Source of the DNA: Pontiellaceae bacterium
GTDB lineage: Bacteria; Verrucomicrobiota; Kiritimatiellia; Kiritimatiellales; Pontiellaceae
Length of the DNA stretch: 64,000 nucleotides
Direction of reading: 5' to 3'
Assembly (NCBI GenBank): GCA_016937945.1
Contig: JAFGVP010000006.1
Coordinates: 1 to 64,000 of the forward strand
Made by a program: the position numbers and the translations under genes
Shown here: positions 1 to 49,943 of the stretch, in pieces
Numbering within the stretch: position 1 is the first letter of the stretch
Layout: every line of letters begins with the position of its first letter
Notes under the pieces: generated by a model
Seen by the model: only the letters and a program-made list of their open reading frames with translations
Database searches by the model: none
Told to the model about the DNA's origin: nothing

Positions 1-2393
1 CGGGAACCGGCGACAGCCGCACGCTGGTCGTGGATGCCTGCCGGGCCGCCGCAGCACAGTATCCGGATATTGACTGGAGTGTCTATGATGGCGATGGCGA
101 CGGGGTGATTGATTCGCTATGGATCATTTTTGCGGGTACATCAGAGTCGTCGGGCAAATTTTATGAGGACGCCATACATCCAGAATCGCAGTTATGGGCG
201 CATAGCTGGAGTGTGTATCCGCGTCAGGAGATTGCAGACGGAATATCAGTGGGGCCCTTCATCATGCTCCCGGAAAACAGCGGCATGGAGGTCGTTTGCC
301 ATGAATACGGCCATGCTCTGGGTGCTATAGATCTGTATGCGTATCAGGAGGGGAACCTTTCCCCATTCAGCTGGGCCCTGATGAACACCTCTCAGTCCGG
401 ATTCCCGCTGCTCATGCTTCCGTCTTCCATGGATCCTTATCATCTGGACGGGTGGGGCTGGCTGCATCCCTATTCCATCACGAATCCGGCAGATACGGCG
501 ACGGTGGAATTGTATCAGGCGGGAAACGGTCTGGATCTTCCGTCGGGAACCTATCGCTCCGCCCGGATCCGTCTGGAAGATCAGCCGATTCCCTTGCCGG
601 TCGCTCCTCCTTCGGACCACGAAATCTGCTGGTGGGGCGGAAAGGATAACTATCTTCTGGTAGAACTGGCTCCGACGAATACCTTTTTTATTTCCGGTGC
701 CAATGCCGTTCTTTCCTTTCAGATGACCTATGACATTGAGCTGGACTGGGATTATCTGGATTGCATGCTGATCACAAGTCCTGATGAACAACGCTGGACG
801 ACCAATACGGTGTCGTATACCGGAACAAGTTCGAATTTTCCCGACTATCATGTGGAAACGATTGAGCTTGGCGATTATGCAGGGCAGTATTTCCGGTACA
901 AATTCCTTTACAGGACGGACTCAAATACATTGGAGGAGGGGCCGTTTATCGGCGAAATCATTCTGGAGGAGGGCGGGGAATCCGATGTGCGGCGGTGGTC
1001 GGCCGAGGACCCGCAGGGGATGCAGACCGACTGGCGGACCACGAACGGATCCCGTATGGTGCCGCACTATTACTACCTGCAGTGGCGGAACACAGGGGAA
1101 GATGGCGGGTATGATCAGGGACTTGGGTATGCGTCGAATTTTGCCGGCCGGGCGACCTCTGGGCTGTTGACCTGGTATGTTAATGAGCTTTATACCGACA
1201 ACGAGGCTCCCGACTACCTGGCAGACTATCCGTCCTATGGTGCCAAAGGGATGGCCATGCTGGTGGATGCTCATCCCTCCGTCTTTTTCTACACAAATGC
1301 GTTCGAGGGGTACCCCTGCACCAATGCACTGGCATATTATAATAATTCCTTTCTGAGCCGGGATATTGCATTTGGACTGCGGGACACATTCCCGTTTGCT
1401 GATGGAATAAACGGTGGGCTGGCCGGGCGCCCGTTCTTTACGGATTGCCGGAATTACGGGGCTGGCGTAGAGTATAGCTACCTTAATCCAGCATCGGTTC
1501 CGCCTCAGTTTGAATGGTCTGCCCGCTCGTTTGACGGCAGCGTGGTGACCCCTTCAAAAAATGCGTATGGCTGTCGGGCACCCGGGATGCCTGCCCAGTC
1601 TGAGATTCATCGGGTCTGGCTGGATCGGGGGAGATATAATCACGAATTTGAGTTCGTCTCGCTGCCCGGAGGCGCCGGTAATCCTCTGGACGTCGGGGGG
1701 GAGTATGGCTGGAATTTTGAAGTGATCGAAGATAAGGGGACCTCCGCCGTTGTGCGCATCTGGAACAGTCATTACCACGCGCCTTATCCCGTGTTGGTAG
1801 ATTGTTTCGGGGCGGGAGGCTCGTGGCCGGCCGATGATTTCCTTGCGGCACCGGAATCGAATACCGTCGTACAGATTGCGGCGGATGCCTATCACCATAT
1901 CGAGAAGCTGCTATGCAATGGCGTTGAGATTCCGGAGGCGGTTGGTCTTCGGGAGTATGAGCTGGCCATGGGCGCGGTCATCTCCAATTCATCCGTGTAT
2001 GCCTTTTTCAGTGCGGATCTTGTCGATGGAAGCCGAATTCCGCAACAGTGGTTTGTGAATCAGGGGATACCGTTGACGCCCGATGTGCTTGGTTCTGACT
2101 ATGATGGCGACGGTATCAGCAACGAAGATGAATACCAGTCCGGGACACGGGCCAATGATGCGGAGTCCGGCTTGAAGCTGGCACTCTCACCATCCGCCGG
2201 CGGAGTATCTCTGGGCTGGCAGAGCGAGTGGGGCCGCTGGTATGAGCTGGATGTTTCCACCAACCTGTTGACCGATCCGTTCCGGCGGGTGATAGGGCCG
2301 CTTCCGGGGGAATATGATTTCATGAATCAGGAAATGCCCCTGTCTGAAGACGGAGTCGGGTTTTACCGGGTCCGTGCTGTACCGGACGAGTGA
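1..2393 (+). CDS. Secreted M6-family metalloprotease, 5' truncated by the window edge
   Basis: The reading frame is open from base 3, so the true start and any signal peptide lie upstream; an internal GTG at 30 is only the first start codon in the window. About 90 residues after that GTG is HEYGHALGAID (HEYGH at 300-314), which fits the HExxHxxGxxD zinc site of M6 (immune inhibitor A-like) peptidases. A DGDGDGVIDS calcium-loop-like stretch lies 50-60 residues earlier, as is usual in M6. Near the C-terminus, DYDGDGISNEDEY looks like a thrombospondin type 3 or EF-hand-like calcium loop. It is followed by a beta-rich module of about 70 residues ending FYRVRAV. The protein probably hydrolyses proteins outside the cell. 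The M6 assignment is firm; the substrate is unknown. Confidence 0.85.
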   Translation, partial: GTGDSRTLVVDACRAAAAQYPDIDWSVYDGDGDGVIDSLWIIFAGTSESSGKFYEDAIHPESQLWAHSWSVYPRQEIADGISVGPFIMLPENSGMEVVCHEYGHALGAIDLYAYQEGNLSPFSWALMNTSQSGFPLLMLPSSMDPYHLDGWGWLHPYSITNPADTATVELYQAGNGLDLPSGTYRSARIRLEDQPIPLPVAPPSDHEICWWGGKDNYLLVELAPTNTFFISGANAVLSFQMTYDIELDWDYLDCMLITSPDEQRWTTNTVSYTGTSSNFPDYHVETIELGDYAGQYFRYKFLYRTDSNTLEEGPFIGEIILEEGGESDVRRWSAEDPQGMQTDWRTTNGSRMVPHYYYLQWRNTGEDGGYDQGLGYASNFAGRATSGLLTWYVNELYTDNEAPDYLADYPSYGAKGMAMLVDAHPSVFFYTNAFEGYPCTNALAYYNNSFLSRDIAFGLRDTFPFADGINGGLAGRPFFTDCRNYGAGVEYSYLNPASVPPQFEWSARSFDGSVVTPSKNAYGCRAPGMPAQSEIHRVWLDRGRYNHEFEFVSLPGGAGNPLDVGGEYGWNFEVIEDKGTSAVVRIWNSHYHAPYPVLVDCFGAGGSWPADDFLAAPESNTVVQIAADAYHHIEKLLCNGVEIPEAVGLREYELAMGAVISNSSVYAFFSADLVDGSRIPQQWFVNQGIPLTPDVLGSDYDGDGISNEDEYQSGTRANDAESGLKLALSPSAGGVSLGWQSEWGRWYELDVSTNLLTDPFRRVIGPLPGEYDFMNQEMPLSEDGVGFYRVRAVPDE

Positions 2394-2415
2394 CGGGGAT
2401 GGAGCCGGCGGGGGC

Positions 2416-3852
2416 TCACTCCTCTTTCAAGGTATCGAACCATTCCTTGCAGGCAAATATGGATGGGAAAAATCCGCCGGTATGCGTGGCGGATGGAAGC
2501 GGATCGATCAGCTGAACGAGATTGCTTGATGCTCCGGCATTCAGAAAGGCATTGACCGCTACAACCGAGTTTGAATAAGGGACGATGTCATCGGATGCAC
2601 AGTGATAAAAGTGTGTCGGAGCGGTCGGAACCCAGTCCCGATAGGTGTCATTTTTCCGCAATGCTGCCACAAACGGATCATTCGTATTTCCGATGGCATT
2701 ACTGATAAAGGCGTCGGTCAGGATTTCGGCCGGAACGGTCGGAAGCTGCGCGCTGATTTCAGAGCCGTAATGGCTGCCGTCAAAAAGAGAAGGAAGGCTG
2801 TCGGCATAGGGCGGCTTGAAAAAGTCGTCGCAGGTTCCAAAATGATAGACTGAATTCAGGCCGAGGATGCTGTAGGGGACATAGGCCGGGAAGTTATAGG
2901 CCTGACCGGAAAAGATTAGAGGTTGCATCGTGCCGGAGAGGTCATGCGGGCCGGCCATCGGGGCGGAGGCGGCGAGGGGGAATTCCTTTGCGTGGAAGGT
3001 TTCCAGTTCCCGCTGGAGGGCCAGAGTGGCGTGACCGCCCTGCGAGTAGCCGGCGATAAAGAGTCGGCCGTTAGGCTGCGGTAGGGGAGCCGTTTTCATA
3101 AACTGCAGGACGGCCCGTAGCATATCGACGGAAGCGACGGCTTCGGAGCGTGCGTGCAGATACGGATGCAGGCCGGGCGAGGTATTTCCCATGCCGGGAT
3201 AGTCGGGCATCGAGACTGCATATCCGCCGGTTGCAAAAATCATTCCGGAATTAACATCCGCAGTTGTGCGGCCTTCTGAGGGGGCAATCTGATCGGCGCA
3301 CAAGGTTCCATGCTGAAGCGATATCATGGGAACCCGGGCAGGAGGCTCGGGAAAGGATGATCCGGGCACTTTCGTTGGGACCAGCAGCAATCCGGAGGCA
3401 AGATCCGAGAGGTTCCGATGGTCGAAGGTTTCATACACAACAGCGATCATCGCTACCGGATAGTGGACCTGATTGGTGTCGAGTCCATAGTACCGAAAAA
3501 TAGATGTCAGATTGGTAGGCGAAACATAACCTATGAAGGTAGTACTTTCCAGCCGCCCTCGTTCTGCATGGCGAACTTGGTAAAACGTTTGGGGAGCTTC
3601 GGCGTATGCGGACCAGTTGGTTGTCGAAGATGGCCAAAGATCAACTTCTCCGGCGGCAACCCAGTTGCTTGTCATTAAGTCGGTGTTTTTCTGAAGGCCG
3701 AATCCGTCCCGGTTTGTTGCTGTGGTTTCAGACCATTCGAGTTGCACGATTCCGTTGGTTGAATCGACCGTGCATTGAGTAAACTCTGCCGCAGGAGCCT
3801 TTCCGGCCAGCATGGCGAGGAAGTTTATAAAGAATATATGTCCTGTTTTCAT
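2416..3852 (-). CDS. Secreted alpha/beta hydrolase (lipase-like)
   Basis: A 478-residue protein. The ATG at 3852 is chosen because it puts a signal peptide (MKTGHIFFINFLAMLAG) at the N-terminus; an in-frame GTG at 3876 would place extra residues before it, and neither start has a convincing SD. An N-terminal module of about 80 residues (VQLEWSETT to FYQVR) resembles the C-terminal module of the preceding protease. The rest is an alpha/beta hydrolase: nucleophile elbow GYSQGG (Ser about 270), a likely acid in CASDDIVPYS (about 420) and a likely catalytic His in SATHTGG (about 456). The overall pattern resembles secretory lipases and esterases. It converges with the protease gene, 22 bp apart. 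Ester hydrolysis is likely; the substrate is not. Confidence 0.75.
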   Translation of the reverse strand: MKTGHIFFINFLAMLAGKAPAAEFTQCTVDSTNGIVQLEWSETTATNRDGFGLQKNTDLMTSNWVAAGEVDLWPSSTTNWSAYAEAPQTFYQVRHAERGRLESTTFIGYVSPTNLTSIFRYYGLDTNQVHYPVAMIAVVYETFDHRNLSDLASGLLLVPTKVPGSSFPEPPARVPMISLQHGTLCADQIAPSEGRTTADVNSGMIFATGGYAVSMPDYPGMGNTSPGLHPYLHARSEAVASVDMLRAVLQFMKTAPLPQPNGRLFIAGYSQGGHATLALQRELETFHAKEFPLAASAPMAGPHDLSGTMQPLIFSGQAYNFPAYVPYSILGLNSVYHFGTCDDFFKPPYADSLPSLFDGSHYGSEISAQLPTVPAEILTDAFISNAIGNTNDPFVAALRKNDTYRDWVPTAPTHFYHCASDDIVPYSNSVVAVNAFLNAGASSNLVQLIDPLPSATHTGGFFPSIFACKEWFDTLKEE

Positions 3853-4056
3853 CTTCTCATAGTTGCACGGATACACCGGTTGGAACGAGGAAAAGGATAT
3901 AGGAACTGATCCGGAAAAATCGGATCAAATCCGGGTAAATCCCCGAAATCCCCCTATACGGAGTCGTATATTTTTCGTATTTACGGCTTGAATGAGAGGG
4001 AGATGCACCTAATATGACCCGCTCATTCATGGGAGAGGTATGTCTTGACCGAGTGG

Positions 4057-4084
4057 TTGAAACTTTTCCCTGAACGAATAACAT
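4057..4084 (+). promoter_or_regulatory. Candidate promoter for rpsA
   Basis: TTGAAA (4057-4062) and TAACAT (4079-4084) are 16 bp apart and lie about 40 bp before the rpsA ATG. Upstream, TGAATGAG (3989-3996) and CTCATTCA (4022-4029) form an inverted repeat. No obvious SD precedes the ATG, which is common for rpsA because S1 binds its own leader. The promoter is a by-eye match only. Confidence 0.35.
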
Positions 4085-4123
4085 GAACAAAAGGTCAGGG
4101 CGCGCGTGTGCCCGCTTTATAAT

Positions 4124-5845
<1,722 letters not shown>

Positions 5846-44896: not shown

Positions 44897-46018
44897 TTAC
44901 GGACGAATATTACGCCGGTGATAATGCATGCTGAATTCCTGTTTGCTGTTGGCCGCCAGCTCGATTTCAAACTTCAGGGTTGAGGCGTCGTCGAGTGTAT
45001 ATTCCATATTGCATGCCTCCATGTCCCACTGCCCGTCGATGTGCTGGATCAGGGTCAGTCGTGCGGGGGTATCCTTGAAGTTTTCGATGGTGGCGGTGAT
45101 CAGCTCATCCGTGTCGTGAAGCACGATTTTTCCGTCATTGTTGCGGCGGATGTTGATTTGCTTGTCGTTCATTTTTTTCTGTACCACGGTGATGTCGCGG
45201 CTGTCGCCGATATAGATTTTCATCGCTTCGCCCACCGGAACCGGCTGGGTATTATCCTCGCCCAGCACAATCGTGCCGCCGCGTCCGTCGTCCTGATAAA
45301 CCCGGGCTTTGCCGCCGTTGAGCGCAAATTCACCGAGTCCGTTTGCTTTTGTGTTTTTGATCACATAGGAGACCGGAATGCCGACATTGCCTCCGACATA
45401 CTCCGGATCCCACGGCAGGGCGGCGGCGTCAAAGGTCCATACCTTCTCGACGGCGATTTCGCCCGGCGAGAGAAAGAGCAACTGCTTGGTTTCCTCGTGC
45501 TGGATGCCGCGCTCGAAGGCTTCGCCGTAGTCGAGCAGGACGCGGGCGTTTTCGAAATCTTCGCCCGAAAAGTTGCGCAGTACCAGATGGCTCTTGAAAT
45601 CGACCTGTGTTTCATTCTTGTCGGCTACCAGTTTATAAGTCACGAGCCGGTCAATGTTGTACAGCAGGTAGGAAATCCGAACGGTTTCCTGCACGGCTTC
45701 CGCACTGCTGATTTCCCACACCAGCGCCTGTTCATTCGGCGGATAGCTGACGTTGAGCAGAGTGACGGAATCCGGGTGATCGATCACCTGCAGCCGGATG
45801 GAGTCGGCATCAATGCTCACGCCGTTCCACGAAAAGTCCACCTGGTTGAGGCCTTGCTGCAGGGTGAGTACGCGCTCCTCCTCAATCAGTGTGACCGTGG
45901 GATTGTCGAGCCGGATGTCGGTGTCGGCGCGTTCCGGCAAGGCGACCATTTTGATGCGGGCCGTTGCCGATGTGGCCGTGAGTGCTGCGATAGCCAGTAT
46001 GACGGTTAAATATTTCAT
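44897..46018 (-). CDS. Secreted DUF4139-like protein, short form
   Basis: A 373-residue protein with a signal peptide (MKYLTVILAIAALTATSATA). It follows the DUF4139 pattern: an N-terminal beta domain (TVTLIEEERVLTLQQGLNQVDFSWNGVSIDADS) then SGEDFENARVLLDYGEA and a late beta-sandwich with VPVGEAMKIYIGDSRDITV. It is colinear with the next two genes upstream but lacks the long Tyr-rich central insert. Fourth gene of the sigma-factor operon. The role is unknown; an extracytoplasmic location is likely. Confidence 0.75.
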   Translation of the reverse strand: MKYLTVILAIAALTATSATARIKMVALPERADTDIRLDNPTVTLIEEERVLTLQQGLNQVDFSWNGVSIDADSIRLQVIDHPDSVTLLNVSYPPNEQALVWEISSAEAVQETVRISYLLYNIDRLVTYKLVADKNETQVDFKSHLVLRNFSGEDFENARVLLDYGEAFERGIQHEETKQLLFLSPGEIAVEKVWTFDAAALPWDPEYVGGNVGIPVSYVIKNTKANGLGEFALNGGKARVYQDDGRGGTIVLGEDNTQPVPVGEAMKIYIGDSRDITVVQKKMNDKQINIRRNNDGKIVLHDTDELITATIENFKDTPARLTLIQHIDGQWDMEACNMEYTLDDASTLKFEIELAANSKQEFSMHYHRRNIRP

Positions 46019-46036: not shown

Positions 46037-47377
46037 TTAAAAGCGGTTTTCGCCAAGGCGGGTGGTGAGGGTGTAGGTGAAGGTCTTTACCGACTCCGCC
46101 GGCAGTTCGAGGGTAAACTTGACGGTGTCCGAGTCGTCTTTTTCGAAGGTTCCGAAATCGCCGGCCTTTTCGAGCGTCCAGTAGGGGGTATGGAAGTTCC
46201 GCTTAATTTCGACCTTTACCGGGACATTGCGCGTATTGCGCACTTCGATCCGGAAGTCGTAGGTCGTATCCCAGCCACTGACATTTCCCTCATTATTGAA
46301 GCGGAAATTGCCGGTCGCAACCTTCATCAGTTTCGGCTCAACGATCACATCCTGAACTCCGCCCAGATCGAGTTCCACCTTTTCGCCGACGGGAATATAT
46401 TTAAAATTCGACTGTCCTTCGTAGGCCAGATGTTCGTTTTCGCCCGTACTGCGATAAACCTTCATTGCACCGCCGGGAATCGGGGTTTCGCCCAGGGCAT
46501 GATCGGTATCATTCGTGAAACTCAGAAAACGGCGCGTCTGCATACCATAGCGATCTTCTTCGTATTTATAGAGGTTTTTCACCGGGATTTCCGAAACGTC
46601 AAAACTCGGCAGGCGCTTGGACCACGTGTTCGGAATCGTTTCCGTTCCCTCGATCGTATAAAGAAAATATTCGCTCAGGCCCTCCTTGACGATTTCTTTG
46701 GGAGCTTCGTCCAGAGCGATGCTTTTCACAATGCGGGAACTGGGTTTGCTGAGTTTCATTTTAGGGCGCTCAATAGCACCACTATCGTAACTATAATAAT
46801 CGAGTGTAATCTCCCCCGGTCTTCCATACGGCGGTTGCTGTTGGGCGAGCTGGGCAATCTGGTCGATCAGGTGCACCTGTCCGACAATCAGCCGGACCTG
46901 AGCATTTTCATAATCCTCGCCGCTGTTGTTGGTGACGCGTACATAGCCCTGCAGGCGCAGGCTGGTTTCGTCCGGCGACAGCGTTCCCATGTAGAATGCC
47001 CGCCACGACAGGCCGCTGGTGAGGTAGCTGATCTCCACCGGCGACTTCCCGCTGATCCGGCTGTTCACGTTCCAGAGCCCGAGGTTGTTGACGCGCGGCG
47101 GATAAACCAGGTCCTGAATATCGATCCGGTCCGCGTTGGCCTTGGGAATCATCTCCAGGCTGGTCGGATCAATCAGCGTGTTTTCCCATGAAAACTGCAG
47201 TTTATTATCCCCTTCCTTCAGGGTCAGGTCGCGCTGCTCGCGCACCAGGGTCATATCGGCCGAGTTATAGATGGTCAGCTGGACGGTATCACGCGTCGGG
47301 ATCGTGACCAGATCCACCTTGGCCTGTGCCGCGCCGCACAGCGCCGCTGTTACGAGGATGGTTGCTGTTCGTTTCAT
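46037..47377 (-). CDS. Secreted DUF4139 protein
   Basis: A 446-residue protein. ATG 47377 is preceded by SD GAGGTG and gives a clear signal peptide (MKRTATILVTAALCGAAQA). The DUF4139 region covers nearly the whole mature protein: VQLTIYNSADMTLVREQRDLTL, LTSGLSWRAFYMGTLS, NNSGEDYENAQVRLIVG, LYTIEGTETIPNTWSKRLPSF and FRIEVRNTRNVPVKVEI. It closely parallels the extracytoplasmic half of the anti-sigma protein encoded just upstream, overlapping that gene (its ATG lies before the anti-sigma stop region, with the ends about 8 bp apart). Function unknown. Confidence 0.8.
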   Translation of the reverse strand: MKRTATILVTAALCGAAQAKVDLVTIPTRDTVQLTIYNSADMTLVREQRDLTLKEGDNKLQFSWENTLIDPTSLEMIPKANADRIDIQDLVYPPRVNNLGLWNVNSRISGKSPVEISYLTSGLSWRAFYMGTLSPDETSLRLQGYVRVTNNSGEDYENAQVRLIVGQVHLIDQIAQLAQQQPPYGRPGEITLDYYSYDSGAIERPKMKLSKPSSRIVKSIALDEAPKEIVKEGLSEYFLYTIEGTETIPNTWSKRLPSFDVSEIPVKNLYKYEEDRYGMQTRRFLSFTNDTDHALGETPIPGGAMKVYRSTGENEHLAYEGQSNFKYIPVGEKVELDLGGVQDVIVEPKLMKVATGNFRFNNEGNVSGWDTTYDFRIEVRNTRNVPVKVEIKRNFHTPYWTLEKAGDFGTFEKDDSDTVKFTLELPAESVKTFTYTLTTRLGENRF

Positions 47378-47384
47378 ATTCACC

Positions 47385-49217
47385 TCATTTTCGTGTTCCA
47401 TGACGAACGGTCAGTTCGTAGTTGATTCTCTTCTTGCTCCACGGTTCGAGCCGGACGGTAAAGCGAATGTGTCCGGCATCATATTTTTCAAACGGATCAT
47501 CCGTGCGGAGATTCCAGTCGTTTGATCCGGTGGCGCGCGTGATCTCCACTTCAACCGGCAGATCACGCGTGTTATTGATCTCAATGGTCCAGTTGGTAGT
47601 TTCATCCCAGCCGGAGATCTCGCCATCGGAATTAAACTGATAGGTATCCGTGCGGGTGCGCATCAGTCTGGGTTCCACAACGACCTGCTGCGCCGGACCG
47701 AGCTCCAGCTCCACCTCCTCGCCGACCGGGATATATTTAATACCGGTGGCGCCGATGTAGCTCAGGTCGTATACGGAGTTTCCAGCTCTTTCTACATTGC
47801 GAAACATCCGAACAAAGCCGTTTGGTAACGGCGTTTCGCCGAGCTTGCAGGTTTCGGTGTTGGCGAAGGAGAGGAATCGGATTGCGTTGGGGCCCCATCG
47901 CTCTTCGTCAAATTTATAGAGATTAGTTACGCCGATTTCCTGCACATCGAACGATGGCAGTCGCTTACCCCAACCGTCCGGGATCGTTTCGTGCCCTTCG
48001 ATCGTGTAGAGCTGGTATTCGCTCAGCGCCTGTTTGATGATTTCCCTCTTAAAGAACGCGGATTTATCCACGACCTGACCACTCCAGCTATAGGAAGAGA
48101 TAAACGATACGGATCCTTCCAGATCCATAATCTCTGGTACGCCTCCCATCGAAGCAAGGGCTCCAGACGTGGGCTGGATCCCGTCTGGGGCGCCGTATGG
48201 ATATTGCCGTTGTGCCAACGCAACGATCTTTTCTTCCAGATTGATTTCCCCGACGACGAGGCGGGTCTGGGCGTTTTCGTAGTCTTCACCGCTGGCGTTG
48301 TCGACGCGGACAAAAGAGCGCAGTTGCATGGTTTGTTCGTCCGGCGCGAGCGTGGCTTCGTAAAAGGCTTTCCATTGAAGTCCGCAGGTAAAATAGGTCA
48401 GCTCAAATTCGGCCTCGCCGTCAAATTCGGAAAAGATGGTCCAGCGCGCGAGTTCGTTGAGGCGCGGCGGATAGACCAGCTGGGTAATCTCGATTTGGTC
48501 GGCGTGGGTCTTTGGTTCGAGCGACAGCGAGGTCGGATCGATCTGCGTATTGCTCCACATAAACTGCAGCCAGTTCCAGCCGCGCTTGAGGGTCAGTCTG
48601 CGGGTTTCGCGCACCAGCGTCAGGTCTTCGGCGTTGTAGATCGTCAGCTGCACGTCGTCGCGTCGCGGCAGTATGTTTAGCTCGATATTGCTGGCCGGAG
48701 CGAACGGCTTTTCGGCGCGCAGTTCGGCGAGGGAAGGGACGGCTCGCTGAGTTGTCCGCTCCGTCAGGGCAGGCGGGCCGCCTGCGGTACGGTCGGGTTT
48801 TGCAGGCGGGCCGCCTGCGGTACGGTCTTGTTTTGCAGGCGGGCCGCTTGCGGTACGGTCGGGTTTGGGGAGGAAGAATTTACTGTGGGCGGTTTGCGGA
48901 GGGGTCGGTGCTGGGTCTTTGACTAAGTTGATCCCGAAAACTATGGCAATACTTGCGGCTGCCGCGAGAAGGGCAACGGTGCGGAATGGAATAGTTTTTC
49001 GCGGCGGTTTTGCACGCAGTACTTCGGCAATGAGTTTTTCGGGAACTTCGGGCTGAACCTTCAGGAGATCGAGCGCGGCAAACTGTCGCCGGATTTGTTC
49101 GAGTCCGGCGCTGCATTCGGCGCAGGTTCCGAGGTGGGCCGTGATTTCTTCCGCCGGCCCGTTTTCAAGCAGGCCGAAGTGATAGTCGCGGAGCTGGTCG
49201 GTGTTATAATGCATCAC
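47385..49217 (-). CDS. Anti-sigma factor fused to an extracytoplasmic DUF4139 domain
   Basis: A 610-residue protein. The cytoplasmic N-terminus has a zinc anti-sigma motif, H-x3-C-x2-C in AHLGTCAEC. One TM helix lies at about 80-98 (TVALLAAAASIAIVFGINL). Three 11-residue repeats (PDRTAGGPPAK type) follow in the linker, encoded by DNA repeats at 48769-48860. From about residue 180 the protein is DUF4139, colinear with the next gene (LTIYNAEDLTLVRETRRLTL, SGEDYENAQTRLVVGE). It overlaps the sigma-factor gene by 4 bp. It probably holds that sigma factor inactive until the outer domain senses something in the envelope. Confidence 0.85.
   Translation of the reverse strand: MMHYNTDQLRDYHFGLLENGPAEEITAHLGTCAECSAGLEQIRRQFAALDLLKVQPEVPEKLIAEVLRAKPPRKTIPFRTVALLAAAASIAIVFGINLVKDPAPTPPQTAHSKFFLPKPDRTASGPPAKQDRTAGGPPAKPDRTAGGPPALTERTTQRAVPSLAELRAEKPFAPASNIELNILPRRDDVQLTIYNAEDLTLVRETRRLTLKRGWNWLQFMWSNTQIDPTSLSLEPKTHADQIEITQLVYPPRLNELARWTIFSEFDGEAEFELTYFTCGLQWKAFYEATLAPDEQTMQLRSFVRVDNASGEDYENAQTRLVVGEINLEEKIVALAQRQYPYGAPDGIQPTSGALASMGGVPEIMDLEGSVSFISSYSWSGQVVDKSAFFKREIIKQALSEYQLYTIEGHETIPDGWGKRLPSFDVQEIGVTNLYKFDEERWGPNAIRFLSFANTETCKLGETPLPNGFVRMFRNVERAGNSVYDLSYIGATGIKYIPVGEEVELELGPAQQVVVEPRLMRTRTDTYQFNSDGEISGWDETTNWTIEINNTRDLPVEVEITRATGSNDWNLRTDDPFEKYDAGHIRFTVRLEPWSKKRINYELTVRHGTRK
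48769..48860. repeat. Three tandem 33-bp repeats inside the anti-sigma gene
   Basis: Units start at 48769, 48802 and 48835. Each carries GCAGGCGGGCCGCCTGCGGT-ACGGTC (the third has one C-to-T change), and the period is exactly 33 bp, so the frame is kept. Each core is a palindrome resembling the intergenic element at 12077. On the coding strand they give DRTAGGPPAK-type peptides in the linker. Confidence 0.9.
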
Positions 49218-49768
49218 AGAACCCCTCCCTTTGGCAGTTGAGTGGAGAGCTTTTTCAGGGCGCGGGACATATGGGACTTCACGGTGCCGAGTGAGCAGCC
49301 CATGATTTGCGCGACTTCCGGATAGGTGTGTCCCTGATAGTAGGCCAGAACCAGCGCGGCCCGCTGCTGCGGCGGAAGGGTTTCAAGTGCGGCCTGCACA
49401 ACCTGCCGCAGTTCGCTTTGCTCCGCATGGTCGGATGGATCGTGTGCGTCGGAGCGGGCGGTATCCTCGTTTTCGAACGGTTCGGTCTGGAGGCGTCGTG
49501 CGTTGCGGCGCAGGCGGTCGACGGCAATTCGGGTGGCGATGGTGTAGAGCCATCCCTTGAATTTTGCGCCGGACCGGTAGGTGTGCGCCTTGCGATGCAC
49601 CCGCAGGAAGGTTTCCTGAAAGCAGTCTTCCGCGATTTCGCTGTTTTGAACCATGCGCATGAGGTAGCCGTACAACAGGTTCCGGTATCGATGGACGAGG
49701 GTCGGGAACGCGGATTCGTCGCCGTCCCGGTACGCTTCCATAAGAAGTTCGTCTGTCCGCTCCATCAA
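49214..49768 (-). CDS. ECF (sigma-70 family) RNA polymerase sigma factor
   Basis: A 184-residue sigma factor with region 2 (YRNLLYGYLMRMVQNSEIAEDCFQETFLRV) and region 4 (LPPQQRAALVLAYYQGHTYPEVAQIMGCSLGTVKSH) joined by a flexible linker; sigma 3 is absent, as in ECF factors. Start is ATG 49768 or 49765. The next gene, overlapping by 4 bp, is its probable anti-sigma factor. ECF genes are often self-activated, but no promoter motif is evident here. It is divergent from serS. Confidence 0.92.
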   Translation of the reverse strand: MMERTDELLMEAYRDGDESAFPTLVHRYRNLLYGYLMRMVQNSEIAEDCFQETFLRVHRKAHTYRSGAKFKGWLYTIATRIAVDRLRRNARRLQTEPFENEDTARSDAHDPSDHAEQSELRQVVQAALETLPPQQRAALVLAYYQGHTYPEVAQIMGCSLGTVKSHMSRALKKLSTQLPKGGVL

Positions 49769-49943
49769 AATTTGCCTGTTCCTTTACCTGCTCATACGCC
49801 TGCCGAGCCGATCCAGTTTACACAAAGAGACAAAAAAGTTCATGAGGAATGTCGGGCGATTCGGAAAAGTGCGAATTCCCGCTTCCAAAACAGGAGCGCT
49901 TCGGCGAATAATATGGGCCGTTTTATTAACAAAGGGGCACGTT

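Follow-up and report, generated by a model that had tools for sequence, protein, structure and literature searches.

Our analysis indicates that a Pontiellaceae genome probably encodes a dedicated, self-amplifying switch made of an ECF sigma factor and a membrane anti-sigma factor, in which the external sensor, a DUF4139 region, is derived from one of the switch's own output proteins. The switch lies in the 64,000-nucleotide stretch of DNA analysed here (the window; assembly GCA_016937945.1, contig JAFGVP010000006.1). Genome comparison confirms at the sequence level that it is real and conserved in two phyla, establishing its architecture, operon and conservation, a single clade of fusions and a common promoter.

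Architecture of the locus

The genes are arranged on the minus strand in the order promoter, ECF sigma factor, anti-sigma/DUF4139 fusion, D454 and D373 (Table 1). They overlap or nearly touch, the sigma reading frame running into the start of the fusion frame, and serS begins divergently across the promoter. The first product is clearly an ECF sigma factor by its domain matches: it is short, has regions 2 and 4 only (Sigma70_r2, PF04542, and r4_2, PF08281; sigma70-ECF TIGR02937, E=2.1e-39) and is 51-78% identical to the sigma factors adjoining other fusions.

Table 1. Features of the switch locus, in window coordinates.
Feature	Position	Strand	Details
Predicted ECF promoter of the operon	49794..49822	-	TGTAAACT-N16-CGTAT; the sigma start codon lies ~25-28 nt further on
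ECF sigma factor	49214..49765	-	183 aa; ATG 49765, TTG 49768 also possible
Anti-sigma/DUF4139 fusion	47385..49217	-	610 aa; motif, Pfam matches, AlphaFold2 model
Cytoplasmic zinc-type anti-sigma domain	49068..49211	-	residues 3-50; H3, H28xxxC32xxC35
Transmembrane helix	48921..48977	-	~residues 81-99; peak mean hydropathy 2.4
Extracytoplasmic sensor	47391..48704	-	PFAPAS motif (171-176) and DUF4139 region to residue 609; PF13598
Hypervariable disordered loop in the sensor	48048..48185	-	residues 345-390; pLDDT, conservation
Free secreted DUF4139 protein D454	46037..47377	-	446 aa from ATG 47377; 454 aa from ATG 47401
Second free secreted DUF4139 relative D373	44897..46018	-	373 aa; BLAST kinship to D454

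The second product had been described in the initial annotation as an ECF anti-sigma factor carrying an extracytoplasmic DUF4139 domain, and this is borne out by the layout of the protein, which consists of a zinc-type anti-sigma domain with an HxxxCxxC motif, one membrane helix, a linker and an external DUF4139 region that scores above the Pfam cut-off (PF13598, residues 272-606, 46.6 bits against 31.8). The HxxxCxxC motif and its upstream His are present in 48/48 fusions, and a hydropathy peak separates the anti-sigma and DUF4139 parts in 51/51. Judged by these motifs, the fusion has the features of the class I zinc-binding (ZAS) anti-sigma factors, namely His...HxxxCxxC, a membrane helix and a co-located cognate ECF gene. 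The N-terminus matches the NCBIfam 'anti-sigma factor' model NF052375 under that model's cut-off (E=1.3e-7) and Pfam zf-HC2 weakly (E=0.015), the latter being matched at E<=0.01 by 14 members of the fusion family (best 2.9e-6). The weak zinc-finger score of the window protein could be taken to mean that the fusion is a mere membrane-anchored DUF4139 protein, with a zinc-finger remnant devoid of any anti-sigma role and an unrelated sigma factor next to it. We consider this highly improbable in view of the invariance of the motif, the position of the sigma gene directly upstream of 48 of 50 fusions, the common promoter and the joint exchange of sigma factor and N-terminus at one locus, L152 (see below). 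The linker of the window protein contains three in-frame copies (window 48769-48866) of a 33-bp palindromic repeat, GCAGGCGGGCCGCCTGCGGTACGGTCGGGTTTT, which is dispersed across the genome (10 matches in total with at most 2 mismatches).

The sensor includes the PFAPAS motif, which is fusion-specific and near-invariant (F172, P174, A175 and S176 are invariant in 45/45 fusions) and which occupies the position of the signal-peptide cleavage site of free DUF4139 proteins. Further on, the majority-residue frequency drops to a mean of 0.24 in the loop, versus about 0.80 in the flanking blocks. In the AlphaFold2 model of the fusion (mean pLDDT 77.5), the N-terminal helices (91-97 over residues 1-40) and the beta domains are confident, and residues 353-400 are disordered, with pLDDT < 50. 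Although the sensor and D454 exceed the cut-off of PF13598, which covers the DUF4139/mucoidy inhibitor MuiA family, they fall far under that of the MuiA subfamily (TIGR02231; 45.8, 36.5 and 21.1 bits for the DUF4139 proteins of the locus, cut-off 112.6). No convincing sequence relatives were found in the PDB. A PDB fold search with the sensor model gave ribophorin I/Ost1 as its top seven matches (best E=1.4e-7), and the same protein came first for the D373 model; the likeness is one of fold only, with ~12% identity, TM-scores < 0.2 and no sequence match. A distant relationship between DUF4139 and this subunit of the eukaryotic oligosaccharyltransferase is thus possible on the strength of the models, as a lead only.

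The two secreted DUF4139 homologues that had been said to follow in the same operon correspond to D454 and D373, both of which lie outside the interval first annotated (47385-49768, which holds the sigma and fusion genes only). D454 has a signal peptide and a DUF4139 match above the cut-off (E=2.3e-14, 54 bits against 31.8), and is 47-50% identical to the fusion sensor. D373 also has a signal peptide; its PF13598 score (17.6 bits) is under the cut-off and its relationship to D454 was recognized by BLAST. It is the most conserved member of the system, with 60-77% identity across two phyla. The D454-D373 pair is often present without the sigma factor or the fusion. Both are lacking in the Pontiellaceae genomes B12219 and G397, where D454 lies near serS (accompanied by D373 in B12219). 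The free proteins thus also serve some purpose outside the switch. Elsewhere, some DUF4139 proteins contain lectin-like Laminin_G_3 domains, either as an insertion or as an appendage (L093:9844-11859, L135:117-2909).

Distribution and origin of the fusion

Scanning 84,980 species, each represented by a single genome, we obtained 471 relatives, the best 75 of which (loci L087-L161) belong to Planctomycetota (mostly Phycisphaerae, Sedimentisphaerales), Kiritimatiellota or records labelled Lentisphaerae. A search for further zinc anti-sigma/DUF4139 fusions with adjacent free DUF4139 genes, which the initial annotation had proposed as a check, yielded at least 51 fusion loci, many of them in metagenome bins, in Planctomycetota (Phycisphaerae/Sedimentisphaerales) and Kiritimatiellota. 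The fusion is therefore not confined to the window's genome, a possibility that the same annotation had raised against its own reading. Within the window's class, it is carried by five genomes of the family, the window's own included, and by one genome of another family. Among the first 50 fusions (the 51st was added after widening the motif window), 48 directly follow a sigma gene, one is separated from it by a single ORF and one lies at the end of its contig. We found no viral relatives and no membership in anti-phage defence families, apart from one weak sigma match. A 1620-aa FAD-oxidoreductase/DUF4139 'fusion' (L124:4497-9359) was rejected as a scaffolding artefact, since its ORF contains a stretch of 100 N; a split ZAS gene of the same genome (L242) also runs into N.

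A tree built by a quick method from 162 DUF4139 regions, and containing some long branches, places all 50 fusions together in a group of 63 rows (support 99) that is distinct from the main group of free D454 proteins (78 rows). Among the rows of the fusion group that are not fusions are truncated genes and proteins that have apparently lost the ZAS part. This separation of the fusions from the free copies indicates that the fusion is ancient, and the simplest reading of the tree is that it arose once, from a duplicated free DUF4139 protein. The Pontiellaceae fusions, four in number, cluster with full support within the planctomycetal ones. This nesting suggests transfer of the fusion between phyla, albeit with an inner support of only 90-93. 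At one locus (L152:869-3192), a different ECF sigma factor (25% identity) precedes a DUF4139 fusion whose N-terminus lacks HxxxCxxC, an apparent swap of sigma factor and anti-sigma domain onto the same sensor. Such a joint change would be expected if the N-terminus binds the sigma factor. The mirror-tree correlation of sigma and ZAS (0.80) is uninformative in this respect, because every pair of operon members is likewise correlated.

Where more than 5 kb of sequence was available downstream of the fusion (n=26), D373 was found in 26/26 cases and D454 in 24/26. It is possible, though we propose it only tentatively, that the switch senses its partner or the state of an assembly, the D454-like sensor binding D373 in place of free D454, so that an excess or shortage of secreted D373/D454 sets sigma activity. 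This would be a specific form of the competition between free copies and sensor that the initial annotation had suggested. That the sensor is a D454 paralogue, that the most conserved component accompanies all 26 checkable fusions, and that sensor and D373 distances are correlated (r=0.86; partial 0.55 given sigma) are consistent with this explanation; however, such a correlation is expected from linkage alone, and D454 and D373 also exist without the fusion.

A conserved promoter and its predicted regulon

The sequences upstream of the sigma genes share an ECF-like motif, typically TGTCAACC-N16-CGTCTA, about 25 nt from the start. In Planctomycetota it reads TGTCAACC-N16-YGTCTA, and in most Pontiellaceae, the window included, TGTAAACT-N16-CGTAT, with equal N16 spacing. 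The strict motif occurs in 28/51 sigma upstream regions, compared to 0.005 in shuffles. With a position weight matrix (PWM), a score >=12 was reached by 39/49 sigma upstream regions, a circular figure as the matrix was trained on these. No fusion start (0/49) and no DUF4139 gene preceded by another (0/137) reached it, and 5/447 other genes did, the five including a sigma gene and a secreted-protein gene just upstream of a sigma gene. This distribution argues that one promoter drives the operon. The presence of a conserved ECF-like promoter before the sigma gene in two phyla predicts ECF autoregulation and, as the operon would be transcribed by the freed sigma factor, the free DUF4139 proteins are predicted to be outputs of the switch.

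An exact genome-wide scan of 35 genomes gave 23 sites, few per genome, versus 4 in the reversed control. Thirteen are at sigma genes and five have no sensible target. Among the others, two precede unlinked free D454 genes by 45-103 nt (L170/L184), one precedes a chimeric gene that encodes a D454 signal peptide and has a D454 gene behind it (L171/L210), one precedes a secreted GLUG protein adjoining a sigma gene, and one precedes a distant DUF4139 protein. A further motif scan brought another genome in which the motif precedes the distant DUF4139 protein (L183 and L216 in the two genomes), and a serpin. The window's genome has only two strict matches, one being that of the operon, and the strict regulon predicted there consists of the operon and one candidate site. 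This other match (contig C120:5059-5087, L207) lies 34 nt before the gene of a 147-aa predicted secreted protein in which we found no Pfam match.

Secreted serpins as predicted outputs

At 7 loci, the operon contains or adjoins serpin genes, 8 in total. Among unlinked planctomycetal serpins taken from fusion-bearing genomes, 7/14 have the motif within ~80 nt upstream and 7/14 do not, versus 1/206 control ORFs (p=6e-9, with the PWM threshold carried over from the operon analysis and with two ORFs taken out of the controls, one being a D454 gene and the other overlapping one of the serpins). The motif was found before none of 7 Kiritimatiellota serpins, both serpins of the window's genome included, and the serpin link therefore holds only for Planctomycetota, where secreted serpins are predicted to be outputs of the switch. 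The secreted serpins have VNEEGTEAAAATA as their hinge, as is typical of inhibitory serpins, and the hinge EEGTEAAAATA is kept in nearly all serpins examined. In Pontiellaceae, serpins are present in four fusion-bearing genomes and in neither of two without the fusion; none was found in one incomplete fusion-bearing relative. A search of 41 genomes, most of them fusion carriers, gave no serpin match in 12.

The serpin outputs, together with the exposed loop of the sensor, lead us to favour extracellular proteolysis as the signal, if only tentatively. Extracellular or periplasmic proteases would cut the hypervariable loop or the linker, a site-1 event that frees the sigma factor, and the resulting serpins and fresh DUF4139 proteins would serve as inhibitors or decoys. 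This possibility is consistent with the inhibitory-hinge serpins of the 7 loci and the motif before half of the unlinked planctomycetal ones, with a disordered, hypervariable loop set between conserved blocks, and with the precedent of RsiV, a lysozyme receptor and thus a hydrolase-sensing anti-sigma factor (PMC4183432, PMC5014341). Weighing against it, hypervariable loops are common, the Kiritimatiellota serpins lack the motif, and more than a quarter of the genomes searched had no serpin match. A narrower and rather doubtful version holds that the DUF4139 anti-sigma factor acts as bait, its exposed loop being cut by foreign extracellular proteases, and that the freed sigma factor then directs the synthesis of secreted serpins and of replacement DUF4139 bait; if true, this would be an inducible protease-inhibitor defence common to Planctomycetota and, in part, Kiritimatiellota.

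The two serpins of the window's genome are secreted, in tandem and ~608 aa each, and carry long extensions at the N-terminus (contig C98, L187:341-2167 and 2310-4133). A fusion of serpin to anti-sigma factor was rejected in this case, since the ~235-aa extensions have signal peptides and a LolA-like domain but no ZAS domain; in the one scanned, the LolA-like match has E=8.6e-12 and there is a weak match to RseB (E=0.003).

Model and comparison with known systems

In the model that we propose, the cytoplasmic zinc-type domain of the fusion would, as expected from what is known of its family, hold the adjacent sigma factor inactive, while the external sensor is an ancient paralogue of the secreted D454. 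A change in the state of the sensor would inactivate the anti-sigma factor, most likely by stepwise proteolysis; S2P-type (M50) proteases are encoded in the window's genome, as they are in all 14 control genomes. The freed sigma factor would then transcribe its own operon, i.e. the sigma, fusion and free DUF4139 genes, from the TGTCAACC-N16-CGTCTA-type promoter, and in Planctomycetota, as the conserved promoters predict, also unlinked DUF4139 genes and secreted serpins. Since the sensor resembles a free DUF4139 protein and D373 accompanies every checkable fusion, the free proteins may in turn feed back on the switch.

The initial annotation knew of no described signalling system of this form, which is too strong a statement: the general form, an autoregulated sigma factor with a membrane anti-sigma factor whose sensor is homologous to a secreted product, is already known from Clostridium thermocellum, where the GH10 sensor of RsgI6 shares 57% identity with Xyn10D, a secreted enzyme (PMC4711584). 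The SigI/RsgI systems resemble the present one in their autoregulated alternative sigma factor, membrane anti-sigma factor and outer sensor homologous to their own secreted proteins. They differ from it in that SigI lacks region 4, which the sigma factor here possesses, in that their anti-sigma domain is RsgI_N, for which the Pfam scan of our proteins gave no match, instead of a zinc-type domain, and in that their sensors are carbohydrate modules instead of DUF4139, the outputs predicted here being DUF4139 proteins and serpins. With the ECF factors paired with class I ZAS anti-sigmas (PMC7406223), the switch shares HxxxCxxC with its upstream His, a single helix, a co-transcribed ECF gene and autoregulation, but its external domain is DUF4139. 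SigV/RsiV, the lysozyme receptor of Bacillus subtilis, is comparable only if proteolysis is the signal, by virtue of responding to hydrolytic attack; its anti-sigma family and ligand are different and it involves no serpins (PMC4183432, PMC5014341).

The formal parallel with RsgI6/Xyn10D (PMC4711584) and the lectin-like Laminin_G_3 domains of some DUF4139 proteins raise another explanation, in which both the DUF4139 region and the free DUF4139 proteins bind some external ligand, such as a polysaccharide. We regard it as somewhat unlikely, as carbohydrate enzymes do not recur in the operon or the predicted regulon. Ligand sensing and the sensing of a partner through D373 are nevertheless rivals of comparable standing to the proteolytic signal that we favour.

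In the part of the literature that we searched, we found no report of DUF4139 as a sensor, of DUF4139 proteins as outputs of such a switch or of a link to serpins. Our results provide a function-linked context for DUF4139, which is widespread yet hardly treated in the papers searched, and they define in Planctomycetota and Kiritimatiellota an ECF system whose promoter is specified and whose predicted regulon is short. As it appears to activate serpins in one phylum, the switch may represent an uncharacterised alarm that responds when the cell surface is attacked, and the serpin link makes testable both the purpose of bacterial serpins and what turns them on. Two loci also encode, within the operon, secreted proteins of ~530 aa with a thioredoxin-like C-terminus (L097:7529-9139, L114:11217-12812).
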